From Sulfurimonas sp. (GTDB lineage: Bacteria > Campylobacterota > Campylobacteria > Campylobacterales > Sulfurimonadaceae), in assembly GCF_028694895.1 (NCBI RefSeq), contig NZ_JAQVKA010000010.1, forward strand, positions 1 to 37,410: DNA of 37,410 nt. The letters are read 5' to 3'. The notes below the pieces were generated by a model. It searched no databases. It saw only the letters and a list, made by a program, of their open reading frames with translations, and was not told where the DNA came from. Positions 10,102 to 17,887 of this stretch are shown here, one piece after another. The position numbers and the translations under genes were made by a program. Positions within the stretch are counted from its first letter, which is position 1. Every line of letters starts with the position of its first letter.

Positions 10102-10494
10102 ATGAAAGTAGAAAAGATGTTATATAATGAAGTTACAAAAGAAAACCTAAATAAGATGGTGCTTTTGTTTTATTCAAAAGTTTTAAAAGATATTGTTGTT
10201 GCTCCGTTTTTTATTGAAAAATTAGGAGACGATATGAAAAATGATAAATGGCGTCCTCATTTAGAGATATTAACAAATTTTTGGGCTTCCATCGCTCTTG
10301 GGGATAGTGCTTATAGAGGTAGCCCATTTGCTCCTCATCTAGATATCGAAGGTATCTCAAGAGAAGCATTTCAAGGCTGGTTGAGACTATTTTATGAAAC
10401 TCAAGATAGTATCTATGTCCCAGAAATCGCCGATTTTTTTAAAAATAGAAGCACGCTAATAGCTGGTAATTTCATGAGGAATTTAGGAGTTTAA
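10102..10494 (+). CDS. Group III truncated hemoglobin
   Basis: FYSKVLKDIVVAPFF, HLEILTNFWASIALG, FAPHLDI, FQGWLRLFYET match truncated globin group III. Confidence 0.85.
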   Translation: MKVEKMLYNEVTKENLNKMVLLFYSKVLKDIVVAPFFIEKLGDDMKNDKWRPHLEILTNFWASIALGDSAYRGSPFAPHLDIEGISREAFQGWLRLFYETQDSIYVPEIADFFKNRSTLIAGNFMRNLGV

Positions 10495-11355
10495 AAACCT
10501 ATCTTTATAGCTACATTTTTTACAAAGCTCTTCAACTGCAATATTCTCTTTAAAACCGTCTATCATATCGGTTGCTCTTTTTGAGAAGAGTATATCTCTT
10601 AAACTCTGCTCATTAAGATTGCCAAGATTTATAACTCCATCGCCATCCAAGCAACATGGTACAACAGTGCCATTTGCTAGTATGCCAATATGTGAAGATA
10701 GCCCATAACAAGGTGCGTGAGAGTTGTGAGTGGACTCTAGTGAGGGCCATTCAAAATAGCTATCAAAGTTTAGTAGTACTTTTGGGGCAAGGCGCAGAGA
10801 TTTTATCTTCTCTTTATAGATAGTCTCAGTATCAATAGTTGTATTAAAAAAAGAGTTTAGTTTCTCAAATATGAGTTTATTATATGACTCTTCAGAATAG
10901 ATATCATCAAGATTCCAAAGACGAAGATTTATAAAAGGCTTGGAAAAGTCCTCTAGTTTTTGTGAGCAAACATCTAAAACATGCCCTATATACTCTTCAA
11001 AGCTAATGTTTAGACTATTTTTGTTGAAACTGTTTAGTGAGATGTTTAGTTGGCGAACTGCTTCATGAAAAAGTGTTTTAGCACTATGTTTAGAGAGATA
11101 GTAACCACTTGTTGTTAGCTCTACTTCAAAGTTGTATTTTTTAGCAATATCAAGATACTCATGTAAATTAGAGAGAAGCAGAGGGTCTCCCATCACATGA
11201 AAGGCTAGAGTCTTTGTATATGGAGTCAGTTCTTTGAGTGTTTTTTCAAAGAAATCAAGAGACATAGTTTTTGATGGATTTGCTTTTGGAGGGCAAAAAC
11301 TACAAGCAAGACCGCAAATATTTGTTACTTCAATATGGACACGATGAAACTGCAT
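10483..11355 (-). CDS. Radical SAM / SPASM-type protein
   Basis: CGLACSFC (CxxxCxxC) near the N-terminus; C-terminal Cys cluster CYGLSSHIGILANGTVVPCC...CKKC. Confidence 0.85.
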   Translation of the reverse strand: MQFHRVHIEVTNICGLACSFCPPKANPSKTMSLDFFEKTLKELTPYTKTLAFHVMGDPLLLSNLHEYLDIAKKYNFEVELTTSGYYLSKHSAKTLFHEAVRQLNISLNSFNKNSLNISFEEYIGHVLDVCSQKLEDFSKPFINLRLWNLDDIYSEESYNKLIFEKLNSFFNTTIDTETIYKEKIKSLRLAPKVLLNFDSYFEWPSLESTHNSHAPCYGLSSHIGILANGTVVPCCLDGDGVINLGNLNEQSLRDILFSKRATDMIDGFKENIAVEELCKKCSYKDRFLNS

Positions 11356-11717: not shown

Positions 11718-12500
11718 TTAAATTTTCTTCTTTACAAAATATATAACTCCAAACATAATAACTGATAAATATATCATGAAAATTGCAACGCTGTTTGTTC
11801 CTGATGCCCCATCTGAAAAAGGAAGGCCGCTTGTATTCATTCCAAAAAAACCTACAACCAAATTTAGTGGTAAAAAAATCGCAGAGATTATCGTTAAAAT
11901 ATAGATTAGATGATTCATTCTTTCGTTTGTTTGTGCATGATGAAAATTATAAAGATAGTCTAGTTTTGATAGTTGCAGTTTTGCTGAGTTAAGAGTTCTC
12001 TCTAGATGCTCATGTAAATCCATATAGTGATTGATAGGAAATTTTTTAGTATCTGTATAATACTCAATCATTTTATCCATCGTTGAAGATGCGTGCATAA
12101 GTACACGTTCTACTCTCACAATATTGCGTTTAAGTTCAAGCCATTTGTTTATAAAAGATTTTTGTGTTTTGTTTAGGTAAAGTGCTTCTTCCATATCGAC
12201 AATCAAATCACGATATGTTTCAAAAGATTTAAGCAGATTATCTATTATCGTGTCTAACATTTTATATGGTGCTTCAAAGCGATTTCCAAGCTCTTCAAAA
12301 ATATCTTTTTCTCTAGTGTAGATATAACTATTATCACTTGTGATGATAAATCCTATAGAGATTAACTCAAGTTTTTTATCTATAATAGGTAATCTTACTA
12401 TCAACATATCGTAGTTATCGTTTTCATCAAATATGGAGGGATGCATAGGATTTTTTAAGTCATCTAAATGAAGATCATCTAGCAATTTAACTATATTCAT
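11718..12500 (-). CDS. CorA-family divalent metal ion transporter
   Basis: C-terminal two-helix region with GFFGMNTSGLP (GMN motif) and basic tail. Confidence 0.9.
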   Translation of the reverse strand: MNIVKLLDDLHLDDLKNPMHPSIFDENDNYDMLIVRLPIIDKKLELISIGFIITSDNSYIYTREKDIFEELGNRFEAPYKMLDTIIDNLLKSFETYRDLIVDMEEALYLNKTQKSFINKWLELKRNIVRVERVLMHASSTMDKMIEYYTDTKKFPINHYMDLHEHLERTLNSAKLQLSKLDYLYNFHHAQTNERMNHLIYILTIISAIFLPLNLVVGFFGMNTSGLPFSDGASGTNSVAIFMIYLSVIMFGVIYFVKKKI

Positions 12501-12516
12501 GCTATATCCTTATGGT

Positions 12517-13959
12517 TTAATTTGAGCAAAATTCAACTCCATTTTCTTGTAATCTTTTTACAATTTTTTGGCTTAATTGAGATTTTAGCTCCATAATGTG
12601 GTGGTATGGAGCAGCGTACCAAATATATAGAATAAAACATGACGTCTTAGTATCGGGAACAAAATGGATACGAGGCCTAAACTCTCTAGAGCGCATATCA
12701 TATCTCCTTCTTAGACTTGAAAACTGTTTTGAAGCGACTTCCATGTATTTTCCAACGCTCTCATATGTTATCTCTGTTACCAACTCTTCTATTTTTTTTG
12801 TATCAGCATTAAAAGGGATTTTAAACTCTATAAGATCATAGATAGTCTTCATTCTATCATGTGTATAGTTATAAACATAATTTGTTACAAAAAAATTGTT
12901 TGGTATAAAAACAGTTCTTCCTGAGCGTTTTAACTCTAGGGCAGTCGTGTTGTTTATGCTTTCATAAAGTGTAACTTGAAATAGTGAGATGTTTATAATC
13001 TCTCCTATGATTTGGTTATTGTTTACTTGTATAAGAATTCTATCTCCAACTTTTATAAAGTTTCCAAAGGAGAGTTGAAACCAAGTTGCTATACTTTGAA
13101 GGTACTCTTTCATACTGATAGTTATTGCTGCTGCTATCACACCAATAAGCGTTGCGGCATAAATAATGTTACTGATATTGAAAATAATCAACATAAGTAA
13201 AACAAGAAGAAAAAAGATAATGTTTAGCACTCGCTTTAATCTAAAGAGTCTATCTTCGTTATCTATTTTTTTTGTTATAAAGTATTTGAGAAGATTAAAA
13301 AGAATAAAAATTAAAATTAAAATTGCAATTTTAATCATATAAATTGGAAGTTGAGTCTGTTTGAAAGCCGCTAATTCGCTAAGATATCTCTGTTTTGTAC
13401 GCTTTAAAACCTCTTCTTTATTATCCAAGAGTCCTCTTGCATTTTCAAAAAAATCTAATGCTTTTTTTAGCTGATACTCTTTAAAAAAATCTCTACTCTC
13501 TAAAGCTTCGCTCGCTTGTAACTCTTTTTCTAAGAAGGTAACTGCATCGTCAAACTCTTGTTTTAAGATTTTTAAACGTTGAGTTTGTATGTTGAATTTG
13601 CTCTTTAGACTTGTAAATAAATACTCTATTAGCCCTATATCCTTGGCATCTTCAACAGTGATTTTCTCTAGCAGTGTATCAAAAGATTGAGGGAGTTCAT
13701 CTAGTATTTTCTTTTTACTAGTTTGAAGTTGAAGCAGTTGATTTAACTCTATTTTTTTCTTAGGACCCGCTTCTCTTATACTTCTCTCTATAGCTTGAAT
13801 CTCGCCATCAAGGGCTTGGGCCTTTAGCTGATTATTATATGTTTGTAGCCATATGTTTTTTTCTTTTTCAAAATATAAAAAATCTTCAGCATTTAAAAGA
13901 GATAACAAAAAACTAAAGCCAACTATAAAATACGCTATTTTTTTCATCAAACGCTCCAT
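12517..13959 (-). CDS. MscS-family mechanosensitive ion channel with N-terminal signal peptide/coiled-coil region
   Basis: Central TM helices followed by ISMKEYLQSIATWFQLSFGNFIKVGDRILI and the MscS beta-domain pattern. Confidence 0.88.
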   Translation of the reverse strand: MERLMKKIAYFIVGFSFLLSLLNAEDFLYFEKEKNIWLQTYNNQLKAQALDGEIQAIERSIREAGPKKKIELNQLLQLQTSKKKILDELPQSFDTLLEKITVEDAKDIGLIEYLFTSLKSKFNIQTQRLKILKQEFDDAVTFLEKELQASEALESRDFFKEYQLKKALDFFENARGLLDNKEEVLKRTKQRYLSELAAFKQTQLPIYMIKIAILILIFILFNLLKYFITKKIDNEDRLFRLKRVLNIIFFLLVLLMLIIFNISNIIYAATLIGVIAAAITISMKEYLQSIATWFQLSFGNFIKVGDRILIQVNNNQIIGEIINISLFQVTLYESINNTTALELKRSGRTVFIPNNFFVTNYVYNYTHDRMKTIYDLIEFKIPFNADTKKIEELVTEITYESVGKYMEVASKQFSSLRRRYDMRSREFRPRIHFVPDTKTSCFILYIWYAAPYHHIMELKSQLSQKIVKRLQENGVEFCSN

Positions 13960-13961
13960 AC

Positions 13962-14993
13962 TTATGAAATATAAATTTCTTTTAAAACCTTTATCATACT
14001 CTCAACTGCTCTTTTTGTAGTTGTTTCATTAACTGTATGATAACCAATAGTTGGAATCTGGAGTGTTGTGCCCTGAATCTCGCCTTTTGTTGCAAAAATC
14101 AATCTTCCAAGTTCAGTAGTTCCAAGAGAGCTAATAGTTCTGTTTTTTTGCATTTTATTTTTTAAGTATGTATCTTTGAAGTTGAACTTTATCTTCTCTT
14201 TGATAGCTATTTTTTTTATTTTATCTTTAAGAGGAGATCTAAAAACTGCATTTGAATCTCTATGTCTTAGAACTATATCTATATTTCTAAGTTCCTCTAG
14301 TGTCGGGTAAGGACTAGTGTCTAGAACCAAAAGCTCATTGGTTTTTATATCAAAGCGTCTAAACCACTCCAATAAAAATCTCCAACTTCGCCCCGCCTCT
14401 TCAGACGCTGTAAAAAAAGCTGTACCTTGATAACCTATGGCATACATGTAGATAATCATTGCAACACTTATTACATTATCTAACTGTGCAGAGATTAAAT
14501 CATCTTTAATGTCGAGCTTATCCATAAATGCTATTGGCATCCCAGGTGTAAGATAATCAAAACCGTCAATTTTAAAAATAATGTTGTTTCTTCTCTGGCA
14601 AAGATAAGCTTCTTTTATAGAGCCAAGGCCTAAATATGTGCCAGACCATGGTTGGTAAGCTTGAACTTTTTCATCAACAAATCTAGCTGTAAAGTTGTGT
14701 AAAAGTTGCTCTGAATTTGAATCTCCTGTTAAGTCCGCTTTGTTTTTTGCGATAAATGCAGCGTATTGAAACTCATTATGTCCCGTACAAACAAGACCAT
14801 GTCTATCAGAGTGCGCTGAAATATATCCACGCTCTGGGTTGTCTCCTTTTGCTACTAAAACACCATCATAGTATTCAACTGTAATTCCACGCTCTTCAAG
14901 CTCTCTTTTTATAAACATAAAAAATGGCTGTTCAGCACCTACAACGCTTGGTATTCTTATTAGTTGTTTTAATATATCGTAAAAAAGTTCCAT
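13962..14993 (-). CDS. M42/M20-like (MH clan) metallopeptidase
   Basis: Putative metal ligands retained: SAHSDRHG, SAQLDNV, ASEEAG, VLDTSPYP, GYHTVNE. Confidence 0.85.
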   Translation of the reverse strand: MELFYDILKQLIRIPSVVGAEQPFFMFIKRELEERGITVEYYDGVLVAKGDNPERGYISAHSDRHGLVCTGHNEFQYAAFIAKNKADLTGDSNSEQLLHNFTARFVDEKVQAYQPWSGTYLGLGSIKEAYLCQRRNNIIFKIDGFDYLTPGMPIAFMDKLDIKDDLISAQLDNVISVAMIIYMYAIGYQGTAFFTASEEAGRSWRFLLEWFRRFDIKTNELLVLDTSPYPTLEELRNIDIVLRHRDSNAVFRSPLKDKIKKIAIKEKIKFNFKDTYLKNKMQKNRTISSLGTTELGRLIFATKGEIQGTTLQIPTIGYHTVNETTTKRAVESMIKVLKEIYIS

Positions 14994-14995
14994 GA

Positions 14996-16048
14996 TTATT
15001 CTATTATCTCTTCATTATTTAGTTCAAAAAATTCACTAAGCTCAATTGTATTTTCATTAAAGTGCTCGATTCTATCTTCGGCAACTTCAAGATTTCTAAA
15101 TTTTGCAATGTGAAAAACAGCATCACCTTCTTGTACGAGAGGAATCTCAGATTTGCCAATGATTACTCCATCAAATGGCGCTCTTAACTCAAAACTATTA
15201 TCTCCAATAGCTTCATCAATAAATGCAATTAGCTCATCTTTGCGTACAGTGTCGCCCAAAGCCTTGATTGTTCTTAGCATACCACTCTCAATGGAACGTA
15301 TCCACTGGCTACTTTTTGTAACAAGAGGGTTTTTCTTCTCAGTTTTTTTTATTATTTTTGGAAGCATACCGCTCTCTCTAAGCACATTTATTATCCCATT
15401 TACACCGATTCTAATGCACTTCTCATCAAACCTTAACGCTTCTCCTGCTTCGTATAAAAGTATAGGAATCCCCTCATCTTGTGCAACAGCTCGAAGTGAG
15501 CCATCTCTTACTTCAGAGTGCAAAATAACAGGTGCTTGAAATGCTTTTGCAAGGTTAAATGTATAACTGTTATCTATATTTGTTCTTATATGAGGAAGGT
15601 TTGATTTGTGGATGGAAGCGGTATGTAAATCTATACCTAAATCACATCTTCGCACTATTTCATCAAAAAATATTTTAGCAACTCTACTAGCCAAGGAGCC
15701 ATGAGTGCTCCCTGGAAAACTTCTGTTTAGATCTCTTCTATCAGGCAAATATCTAGATAAGGTCATGATTCCATAAATATTGACGATTGGAACAAGGATA
15801 ATCGTGCCATGTATCTTTTTTAAAATGGCTAATTTTCGAAGACGTCTTATAATCTCTATACCATTTAGCTCATCTCCATGAATAGCGGCACTTATAAAAA
15901 TAGTTGGGCCACTCTTTTTTCCTCTTATGACGTGAATAGGAAGTTTTGTCGGTGTATTGTAGAGGTTTGGGAGTTCGAGGTTTATGCTAAGAGACGCCCC
16001 CAGTGGTATCTCTTGCCCATATAAAATAAGTTTTGCGCTAGATGACAA
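14996..16048 (-). CDS. Succinylglutamate desuccinylase/aspartoacylase (AstE/ASPA, M14-like) family protein with C-terminal lipoyl-like domain
   Basis: AAIHGDELNGIEI (HxxE), DLHTA, LLYEAGEA motifs; C-terminal barrel-sandwich GMLRTIKALGDTVRKDELIAFI. Confidence 0.88.
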   Translation of the reverse strand: MSSSAKLILYGQEIPLGASLSINLELPNLYNTPTKLPIHVIRGKKSGPTIFISAAIHGDELNGIEIIRRLRKLAILKKIHGTIILVPIVNIYGIMTLSRYLPDRRDLNRSFPGSTHGSLASRVAKIFFDEIVRRCDLGIDLHTASIHKSNLPHIRTNIDNSYTFNLAKAFQAPVILHSEVRDGSLRAVAQDEGIPILLYEAGEALRFDEKCIRIGVNGIINVLRESGMLPKIIKKTEKKNPLVTKSSQWIRSIESGMLRTIKALGDTVRKDELIAFIDEAIGDNSFELRAPFDGVIIGKSEIPLVQEGDAVFHIAKFRNLEVAEDRIEHFNENTIELSEFFELNNEEIIE

Positions 16049-16981
16049 TTAAGCTCCAATGCTATCTTTTTTAATTTTTCTTTTTTCTGGGTTTATTTCG
16101 CTCTTTGGACGTATGTTTTTTGCAATATACTCCATGATTTTTCCAGCAATATCAATCTTTGTAGATTTTTCAATTCCTTCTAATCCAGGAGAGGAGTTTA
16201 CCTCCATAACAAGTGGTCCTCTGTTTGATTGAATCATATCAACTCCGCAGATTCCAAGACCCATAGACTTTGCGGCTGCTAGAGCTGTATCTTTCTCTTT
16301 CTTTGTAAGTTTATGTGCTGTTGCAGTTCCGCCTTGATGAAGGTTTGATCTAAAATCTCCCTCAGCGCCTTGACGTTTCATGGCACCTACAATTTTTCCA
16401 TCAACGATAAATACTCTTATATCTGCTCCGCCAGCTTCTTCTATATACTCTTGAACAAGTAGATTTACATCCATTCCATAAAAAGCGTCCAAAACAGATT
16501 TAGCAGCTTTTTCACTATCCACTAAAACAACACCAACTCCTTGAGTGCCCTCTAGTATCTTAAGAACAAGTGGAGCACCGCCGCTTAGGGCTATTACGTC
16601 TTTTGCATTTGATTTGTTCGAGGCAAAAACTGTTTTTGGCATATCAACACCATTTTTGGAGAGTATTTGAAGACTTCTAAGTTTATCCCTACTTCTTTTT
16701 ATAGCCAAAGAACCTGTTGTGCTAAAGACATCCATCATCTCAAAGTGTCTTACCATCGCAGTTCCAAAAAATGTTCTACTAGCACCAATCCTTGGGATAA
16801 TAGCATCAGGAGTTGGGAGCTCTTTTCCTAAATAATTTACTTTTAATTCATCTTTCATTATCTCAATGCTGCATTTTAGGTAGTCTATAACCCTTACTTC
16901 CCAGCCTCTCTGCTCAGCTGCTTGAACTAATCTCTTTGTTGAATATAACTCTTTATTTCTTGATAATACGTAAATTTTCAT
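16049..16981 (-). CDS. rimK: RimK-family ATP-grasp alpha-L-glutamate ligase
   Basis: LKILEGTQGVGVVLVDS, QEYIEEAGGADIRVFIVDGKIVGAMKRQG, GVDMI..GPLVMEVNSSPGLEGIE. Confidence 0.93.
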   Translation of the reverse strand: MKIYVLSRNKELYSTKRLVQAAEQRGWEVRVIDYLKCSIEIMKDELKVNYLGKELPTPDAIIPRIGASRTFFGTAMVRHFEMMDVFSTTGSLAIKRSRDKLRSLQILSKNGVDMPKTVFASNKSNAKDVIALSGGAPLVLKILEGTQGVGVVLVDSEKAAKSVLDAFYGMDVNLLVQEYIEEAGGADIRVFIVDGKIVGAMKRQGAEGDFRSNLHQGGTATAHKLTKKEKDTALAAAKSMGLGICGVDMIQSNRGPLVMEVNSSPGLEGIEKSTKIDIAGKIMEYIAKNIRPKSEINPEKRKIKKDSIGA

Positions 16982-16998
16982 CTTCTGCTTCTTTAGGT

Positions 16999-17424
16999 CT
17001 ATTGTGTCTGTTTTGTGAGATATTCTTGCGAAACATCAACTAAAAATCTTTTTGCTAAAAACTTTCTTCCTATTAGCATTGGATATTTCATATCGGAGCG
17101 ATTTGTCAAAGAGATAACTGTGAGGTAACTTTTACCAAAGAAGTCAACTTTCACCCTAATAGAAGGCCTGTTCTGAGTCTCTCCATTGGAACTTTTTACT
17201 CTTTTCATCTGATAAAGAGGAAGCGATATTTTTTTCCCATGATATGCCTCATGAACTTCATCAAGCAACCTAAAGTGAACAATGTCATCTTCATCTATAT
17301 ATATATCATCGCAGTGCAGGGCATTTGAATCAGCTCCAGTATCAACTTTCGCGTCAAGGTTATAAAGTTCTAAATCTGGGATTGATATAATCTCTTTTGT
17401 ACCAATAATTTTCTTTTTTAACAT
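16999..17424 (-). CDS. RimB-like retropepsin-type ATP-dependent protease family protein (RimK-associated)
   Basis: DAKVDTGADSNALH (DTGA aspartyl protease motif), YPMLIGRKFLAKRFLVDVS; adjacent to rimK. Confidence 0.85.
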   Translation of the reverse strand: MLKKKIIGTKEIISIPDLELYNLDAKVDTGADSNALHCDDIYIDEDDIVHFRLLDEVHEAYHGKKISLPLYQMKRVKSSNGETQNRPSIRVKVDFFGKSYLTVISLTNRSDMKYPMLIGRKFLAKRFLVDVSQEYLTKQTQ

Positions 17425-17644: not shown

Positions 17645-17887
17645 ATGACGTTTAAAGATTTAGAATTTATTCTCGAACTAAATGTGGTAATGAGAAAAGA
17701 TATCGATTATATCTTAGATTTTAGTAGAAAAAATGGCATCGATAACGAAGGTATAGATGACGAACTAAATAAAATGGGTTATGAGAGAATCGTTGAAAAT
17801 GAGCTTGAGTATGGATTGGATGAAGATGAGTATGAACATACAGAAAAGTTTCAACATAGAAACAAATTTTCAGAAGATTACGATTAA
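17645..17887 (+). CDS. Small acidic hypothetical protein (80 aa)
   Basis: Strong SD (aagaggg) 5' of ATG, open frame on otherwise empty strand. Confidence 0.65.
   Translation: MTFKDLEFILELNVVMRKDIDYILDFSRKNGIDNEGIDDELNKMGYERIVENELEYGLDEDEYEHTEKFQHRNKFSEDYD

Follow-up and report, generated by a model that had tools for sequence, protein, structure and literature searches.

A six-gene rimK operon of Sulfurimonas and the hydrolases, channels and ion transporters that recur beside rimK

RimK, an ATP-grasp ligase that joins glutamates, has been known for decades, and the reason bacteria make glutamate chains is unsettled. We analyzed a contig of Sulfurimonas sp., a marine sulfur bacterium (NZ_JAQVKA010000010.1, assembly GCF_028694895.1; the window is its whole 37,410-nucleotide stretch) in which rimK lies in a tight minus-strand operon with genes for a RimB-like retropepsin, an AstE/ASPA-fold zinc hydrolase, a divergent M42 aminopeptidase, an MscS-type mechanosensitive channel and a CorA-type transporter. 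Two observations make up the new content of the analysis: the M42 gene pairs almost exclusively with rimK, and mechanosensitive and ion-transport genes that are not orthologous to one another have been placed repeatedly at rimK. Our proposal, which we hold with about even confidence, is that the operon encodes an extended form of the Rim system, a polyglutamate cycle of synthesis, cutting and recycling linked to osmotic or ionic state.

The operon had been picked out in a reading of the DNA made from the sequence only, and the six open reading frames, their coordinates (11718-17424), their tight gaps and all six Pfam families proved correct. From the rimB side to corA, with lengths in amino acids (aa), the genes are:

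16999..17424, minus strand: RimB-like retropepsin (PF05618), 141 aa, DTGA catalytic motif, without signal peptide or membrane segment
16049..16981, minus strand: RimK alpha-L-glutamate ligase (ATP-grasp), 310 aa, over the NF007764 cut-off
14996..16048, minus strand: AstE/ASPA-fold zinc hydrolase (PF24827), 350 aa, TTG start, C-terminal beta domain
13962..14993, minus strand: divergent M42 aminopeptidase (PF05343), 343 aa
12517..13959, minus strand: MscS-type mechanosensitive channel (PF00924), 480 aa
11718..12500, minus strand: short CorA-type divalent cation transporter (PF01544), 260 aa, GMN motif

In the same order, the Pfam scores are 78.6 (PF05618), 215 (PF08443), 141.8 (PF24827), 24.5 (PF05343), 28.4 (PF00924) and 118.8 bits (PF01544), and the genes are separated by 17, 0, 2, 2 and 16 base pairs. 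Spacing of this kind is by itself unremarkable in bacteria, and the part that goes beyond chance is how well the partners are conserved from one genome to the next. A promoter and terminator scan of the operon region gave no signal above chance, so the predicted co-transcription of the six genes rests on spacing and conservation. All six genes in identical order were also present at locus L163 of an S. crateris metagenome-assembled genome, with 90% identity in AstE.

Co-occurrence of the M42 peptidase with rimK

Across a class-level sample of 200 Campylobacteria genomes, 19 carried rimK and 16 carried the M42 gene, and rimK was present in 16/16 of the M42 genomes (Fisher test, 6e-21). The same held among genera, where all M42 genera (8/8) fell within the 10 rimK genera of 47 (p 1e-7). 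A family-level sample of 200 genomes gave rimK in 61 of 63 M42 genomes and in 55/55 of the good ones; the two M42 genomes without rimK are incomplete assemblies (79% and 88%). When we took one rimK locus per genome from Campylobacterota (n=79, the set used for all locus counts in this phylum), the M42 gene adjoined rimK in 47/79 loci, and in several genera, such as genus g9, it lay far from rimK. As the two genes are often unlinked, linkage alone fails to explain their co-occurrence.

At L022:5908-9050, the M42 gene stands in a run with a mini-MscS and a Kef-type antiporter gene, apart from the rimK of that genome. An apparent 689-aa M42 fusion in L136 proved to be an artefact, produced by a stretch of N in the sequence.

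One ligase and three hydrolases

The sequence-only reading had described one glutamate ligase and three hydrolases from separate classes whose active-site residues are intact, and this description stands. RimK passed the S6-glutamate-ligase equivalog model NF007764 (362 bits, cut-off 331) and matched the solved Pseudomonas RimK 7qyr (phmmer 8e-106) in an alignment spanning nearly its whole length. The retropepsin scored best with RimB among four RimB/Rlo models (RimB and three Rlo), carries the DTG motif in the sequence KVDTGAD and is cytoplasmic, and rimB adjoined rimK in 72/79 loci. It differs from Pseudomonas RimB in scoring below the cut-off of the RimB equivalog NF052261 (69.7 against 200), and for this reason we call it RimB-like. 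In Pseudomonas, RimK forms poly-alpha-glutamate, and RimB both stimulates RimK, with chains of up to 28 residues, and cleaves polyglutamylated RpsF; the same study discusses glutamate-pool depletion and osmolality (PMC11957791). The Sulfurimonas operon is like the Pseudomonas RimABK/RimBK system in encoding a RimK ligase and a cytoplasmic RimB-type retropepsin together, but it lacks the RimA phosphodiesterase and has the additional AstE-fold and M42 hydrolases, MscS and CorA. RimB-RimK hybrids occur naturally (PMC11957791), and one of 472 aa was present in a relative (L018:6576-7994), where the rest of the locus is a typical Sulfurimonas rim locus.

Given that RimK scores above the S6-ligase cut-off, that S6 of this genome ends in ...FEKDEEE, and that RimABK remodels translation in Pseudomonas (PMC11957791), the operon might serve ribosome tuning only. 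The S6 tail would be modified and de-modified to adjust translation, the AstE-fold and M42 enzymes would clear the few released peptides, and the channels would be stress genes expressed alongside but not directly linked. We regard this as doubtful, as three hydrolases and the recurrent MscS, CorA and Kef neighbors exceed what tail trimming needs, and as S6 tails are acidic and mostly Glu-ended in genomes with and without rimK alike, with no co-adaptation visible. The S6 tail had been suggested as a check in the sequence-only reading; the Glu-ended acidic tail is present, but since rimK-negative genomes have such tails too it says nothing either way, and we dropped it as a marker of rimK carriers.

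The AstE-fold protein is not the succinylglutamate desuccinylase AstE proper (TIGR03242, 28.3 against a cut-off of 305.65), and its best NCBIfam model, DoeB, also stayed below cut-off (107.9 against 402.7). The earlier gene names were thus right at the level of family, and too specific where they implied RimB or the desuccinylase. The protein has the HxxE...H site, catalytic Glu and NR pair of an AstE/ASPA-fold hydrolase, and H57, E60, H142, E200, N108 and R109 were invariant across 18 diverse relatives; following the ASPA/M14 pattern, we take these to be the zinc ligands, the catalytic Glu and the carboxylate-binding pair (N108-R109). Its predicted model (pLDDT 86) found DoeB (6twm) as the nearest fold in the PDB and, further down, the cyanophycin dipeptidase CphZ (8eip). 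CphZ hydrolyzes the dipeptides of another ATP-grasp-made polymer, and the resemblance supports a role in polyglutamate turnover, in which the AstE-fold enzyme is predicted to be exo-acting on glutamyl peptides, carboxypeptidase- or dipeptidase-like. The cyanophycin system (CphA, CphB, CphZ) likewise has an amino-acid polymer made by an ATP-grasp enzyme, a peptidase dedicated to it, and an AstE-fold hydrolase for the last stage of breakdown. Its polymer and synthetase are different ones, however (RimK reached 71.4 of 850 bits on the CphA model TIGR02068), the Sulfurimonas operon has a retropepsin in place of CphB, and we rejected membership in this system. AstE adjoined rimK in 36/79 loci, and AstE and M42 both did so in 21/79.

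Several AstE variants were seen in relatives. A 33-aa remnant lies between rimK and M42 (G216:C5:27182-27280), and a genome in which no rimK was detected carries a 113-aa fragment (G033:C43:18471-18809), both suggesting repeated AstE decay. At rimK loci L106, L110, L117 and L125, the first AstE gene is followed in tandem by another, diverged AstE-like gene of 363-368 aa, and L110 also carries a second RimB-like gene.

The M42 protein matched PF05343 with 24.5 bits, barely above the cut-off of 23.2. Its fold nonetheless has five metal ligands and a catalytic Glu, the residues H61, D63, D172, E198, E199, D225 and H319 were invariant in relatives, and the predicted model (pLDDT 79.5) matched the M42/TET aminopeptidases 2gre and 2wyr. 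Fold and metal-site residues are shared with PhTET1 and PepA; one difference is that the H-x-D-E of typical M42 enzymes is replaced by a conserved H-x-D-R-H-G. We predict that this enzyme removes N-terminal Glu from glutamyl peptides. The sequence-only reading had drawn an analogy with the NAGGN dipeptide osmolyte pathway, under which RimK would make a small glutamyl compatible solute and the M42 enzyme would degrade it. A ligase and an M42 peptidase do share the operon, and its neighbors are osmotic, but no NCBIfam M42 model, the NAGGN set included, matched the M42 protein, the NAGGN synthetase model TIGR03103 gave RimK a generic ATP-grasp match of 41.6 against 569 bits, and the equivalog match marks RimK of this type as an S6/polyglutamate ligase. 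We therefore abandoned the analogy and consider such a pathway highly improbable.

In the proposed polyglutamate cycle, RimK would build alpha-linked glutamate chains, either free or attached to the tail of a protein. The RimB-like retropepsin would cut these chains internally and may stimulate RimK, as in Pseudomonas, and the AstE-fold and M42 enzymes would take glutamate off opposite ends of the fragments, refilling the glutamate pool. The cycle would be linked to osmotic or ionic state. If this is true, the M42 and AstE-fold enzymes would supply the exo-acting half of polyglutamate turnover that has so far been missing.

Channels and ion transporters at rimK

Channel and transporter genes clustered at rimK beyond expectation. 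Within 6.5 kb of rimK, the distance used for all neighbor counts, an MscS-type gene was present in 30/79 loci (2.2 expected), CorA in 27/79 (0.7 expected) and a Kef-type antiporter in 8/79 (2.0 expected), with at least one of the three in 50/79; expectations were derived from genome-wide means of 4.2 MscS, 1.26 CorA and 3.7 exchangers. By contrast, 0/17 rimK-positive genomes had a CorA gene that close (6.5 kb) to the gene for S6. The operon MscS is divergent, has membrane segments and exceeds its Pfam cut-off (28.4 against 20.2), with a hydrophobic N-terminus and a long extramembrane region ahead of the pore domain, and orthologues occupy the same position in L072, L094-L097, L100 and L101. 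The operon CorA is the sole CorA in the assembly examined.

These neighbors are of several kinds. At 40% identity, the rimK-neighbor MscS proteins formed four clusters and one singleton, the types being the 480-aa form, a form of about 450 aa, a 163-186-aa mini-MscS and a 304-603-aa classical form (representatives verified by Pfam), and their genes were placed upstream or downstream of rimK on either strand. On a 124-row RimK tree, neighbor labels changed at least 23 times for MscS, 16 for CorA and 7 for Kef, counts that combine gains, losses and missing data. The earlier claim that rimK is linked to the hydrolases, MscS and CorA thus survived a comparison across relatives that might have dissolved it, and with it part of the earlier interpretation. 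MscS and CorA as fixed operon members did not survive; rather, interchangeable and unrelated channel subtypes fill the same neighborhood across lineages. In a by-eye comparison of channel C-termini as possible RimK targets, no common acidic tail was apparent. A search of the open-access literature (subscription papers fell outside it) found no earlier report of channel-rimK linkage.

The pattern extends beyond Campylobacterota. Among 63 AstE loci from elsewhere, rimK accompanied AstE in 45, and MscS was near 17/45 loci with rimK and 2/18 without (p 0.03), in a set chosen by AstE similarity, hence not unbiased, and containing many non-independent Alteromonas. MscS recurred beside rimK-astE in Gammaproteobacteria. 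The arrangements outside Campylobacterota include a mini-MscS within rimK-astE-mscS-rimB in L222, many Alteromonas loci in which a mini-MscS and rimK diverge, MscS upstream of rimB in L204, and rimK-mscS followed by corA in L189 and L198. The repeated, independent placement of channels and ion transporters beside rimK in two phyla offers a concrete, testable physiological setting.

We propose that MscS, CorA and Kef keep recurring beside rimK because the polyglutamate cycle is tied to osmotic or ionic state. That pressure-sensitive channels keep turning up at rimK suggests a part for the poorly understood glutamate polymer in how cells cope with osmotic or ionic change, and the channel neighbors probably reflect a link to turgor or ions. 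Independent reports bear on this. The paralogous retropepsin/ATP-grasp operon rlo governs hypoosmotic tolerance (PMC12239564), and the P. aeruginosa RloABC resembles the Sulfurimonas operon in combining a retropepsin, an ATP-grasp protein and a membrane protein with a hypoosmotic phenotype; it differs in that the Sulfurimonas retropepsin has no signal peptide, the ATP-grasp protein is a true RimK and no inactive-transglutaminase membrane protein (RloB) is among the neighbors, and we rejected membership in Rlo. In addition, rimK (K05844), a mechanosensitive channel gene (K03282) and a magnesium uptake gene (K03284) are each commoner in brackish than in marine relatives (PMC10219603).

Several points weigh against the proposed cycle. 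Deletion of rimB in P. aeruginosa caused no hypoosmotic growth defect (PMC12239564). For each of AstE, MscS, CorA and Kef there are many rimK loci that lack it, which means that none of the four is a strict requirement. The M42 protein is distant from characterized members, mostly 11-18% identical in fold matches, and its sequence cannot give the substrate. Finally, our p-values are naive to shared ancestry, and contig ends were scored as absence.

A rival reading is a modular stress island, in which rimBK, CorA-MscS pairs and peptidases would be separate useful genes in a tolerant neighborhood with no common pathway. The exact six-gene order is narrow (3/79 loci, all near relatives), the M42 gene is unlinked in several genera, and a short CorA and a large MscS also lie side by side apart from rimK (G308:C1:2154827-2156150, G343:C1:952169-953488, G221:C1:29069-31157), as if CorA-MscS were a recurrent pair. 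Yet M42 is confined to rimK genomes even when unlinked, MscS is scarcer at astE loci without rimK than at those with it, and independent arrangements recur in two phyla; we judge the stress island unlikely. Slightly less unlikely, in our view, though still short of the doubtful ribosome-tuning reading, is that RimK alpha-polyglutamate is an osmotic and charge buffer, made on hypo-osmotic shift and broken down on upshift. On downshift, free glutamate would be polymerized, so that particle number falls and carbon, nitrogen and negative charge are kept, and the partner proteins MscS, Kef and CorA would move K+ and Mg2+. On an upshift the chains would be depolymerized by RimB, M42 and the AstE-fold enzyme, restoring K-glutamate. 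The polymer would then serve as a more general, reversible store, with ribosome modification as one of its outputs.

Neighboring genes

Divergent from the operon lies a small gene whose membership in it is only possible:

17645..17887, plus strand: small acidic protein, 80 aa with the C-terminus ...KFSEDYD, from a family that has no name

The protein had no Pfam or NCBIfam match. Its family, proteins of 72-112 aa with an ID.EL.K.GY core and a tail rich in Asp and Glu, was present in 14/19 rimK-positive and 7/181 rimK-negative genomes. Its members adjoin rimB/rimK or are immediate neighbors of M42, including cases in which M42 and rimK are unlinked (homologues in L014-L018, L024, L071, L072, L087, L089-L092, L094-L100, L102, L104, L108, L110, L132, L133 and L143). 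The small acidic protein is a possible RimK target; as it also occurs without rimK, beside a SnoaL-like gene, we do not claim it as an obligatory substrate. It adjoins a SnoaL-like gene (PF07366) in L264, L266, L274-L278 and L281, in genomes with and without rimK, and SnoaL-like genes recur at rimK loci L020, L071, L075, L076, L130, L132, L133 and L137-L139. At L280:1495-2216 (G077), the small acidic protein stands beside an Rlo-like retropepsin with a hydrophobic, signal-like N-terminus.

Downstream of the operon, a radical SAM/SPASM protein (10483-11355, minus strand) is kept beside it in close relatives.

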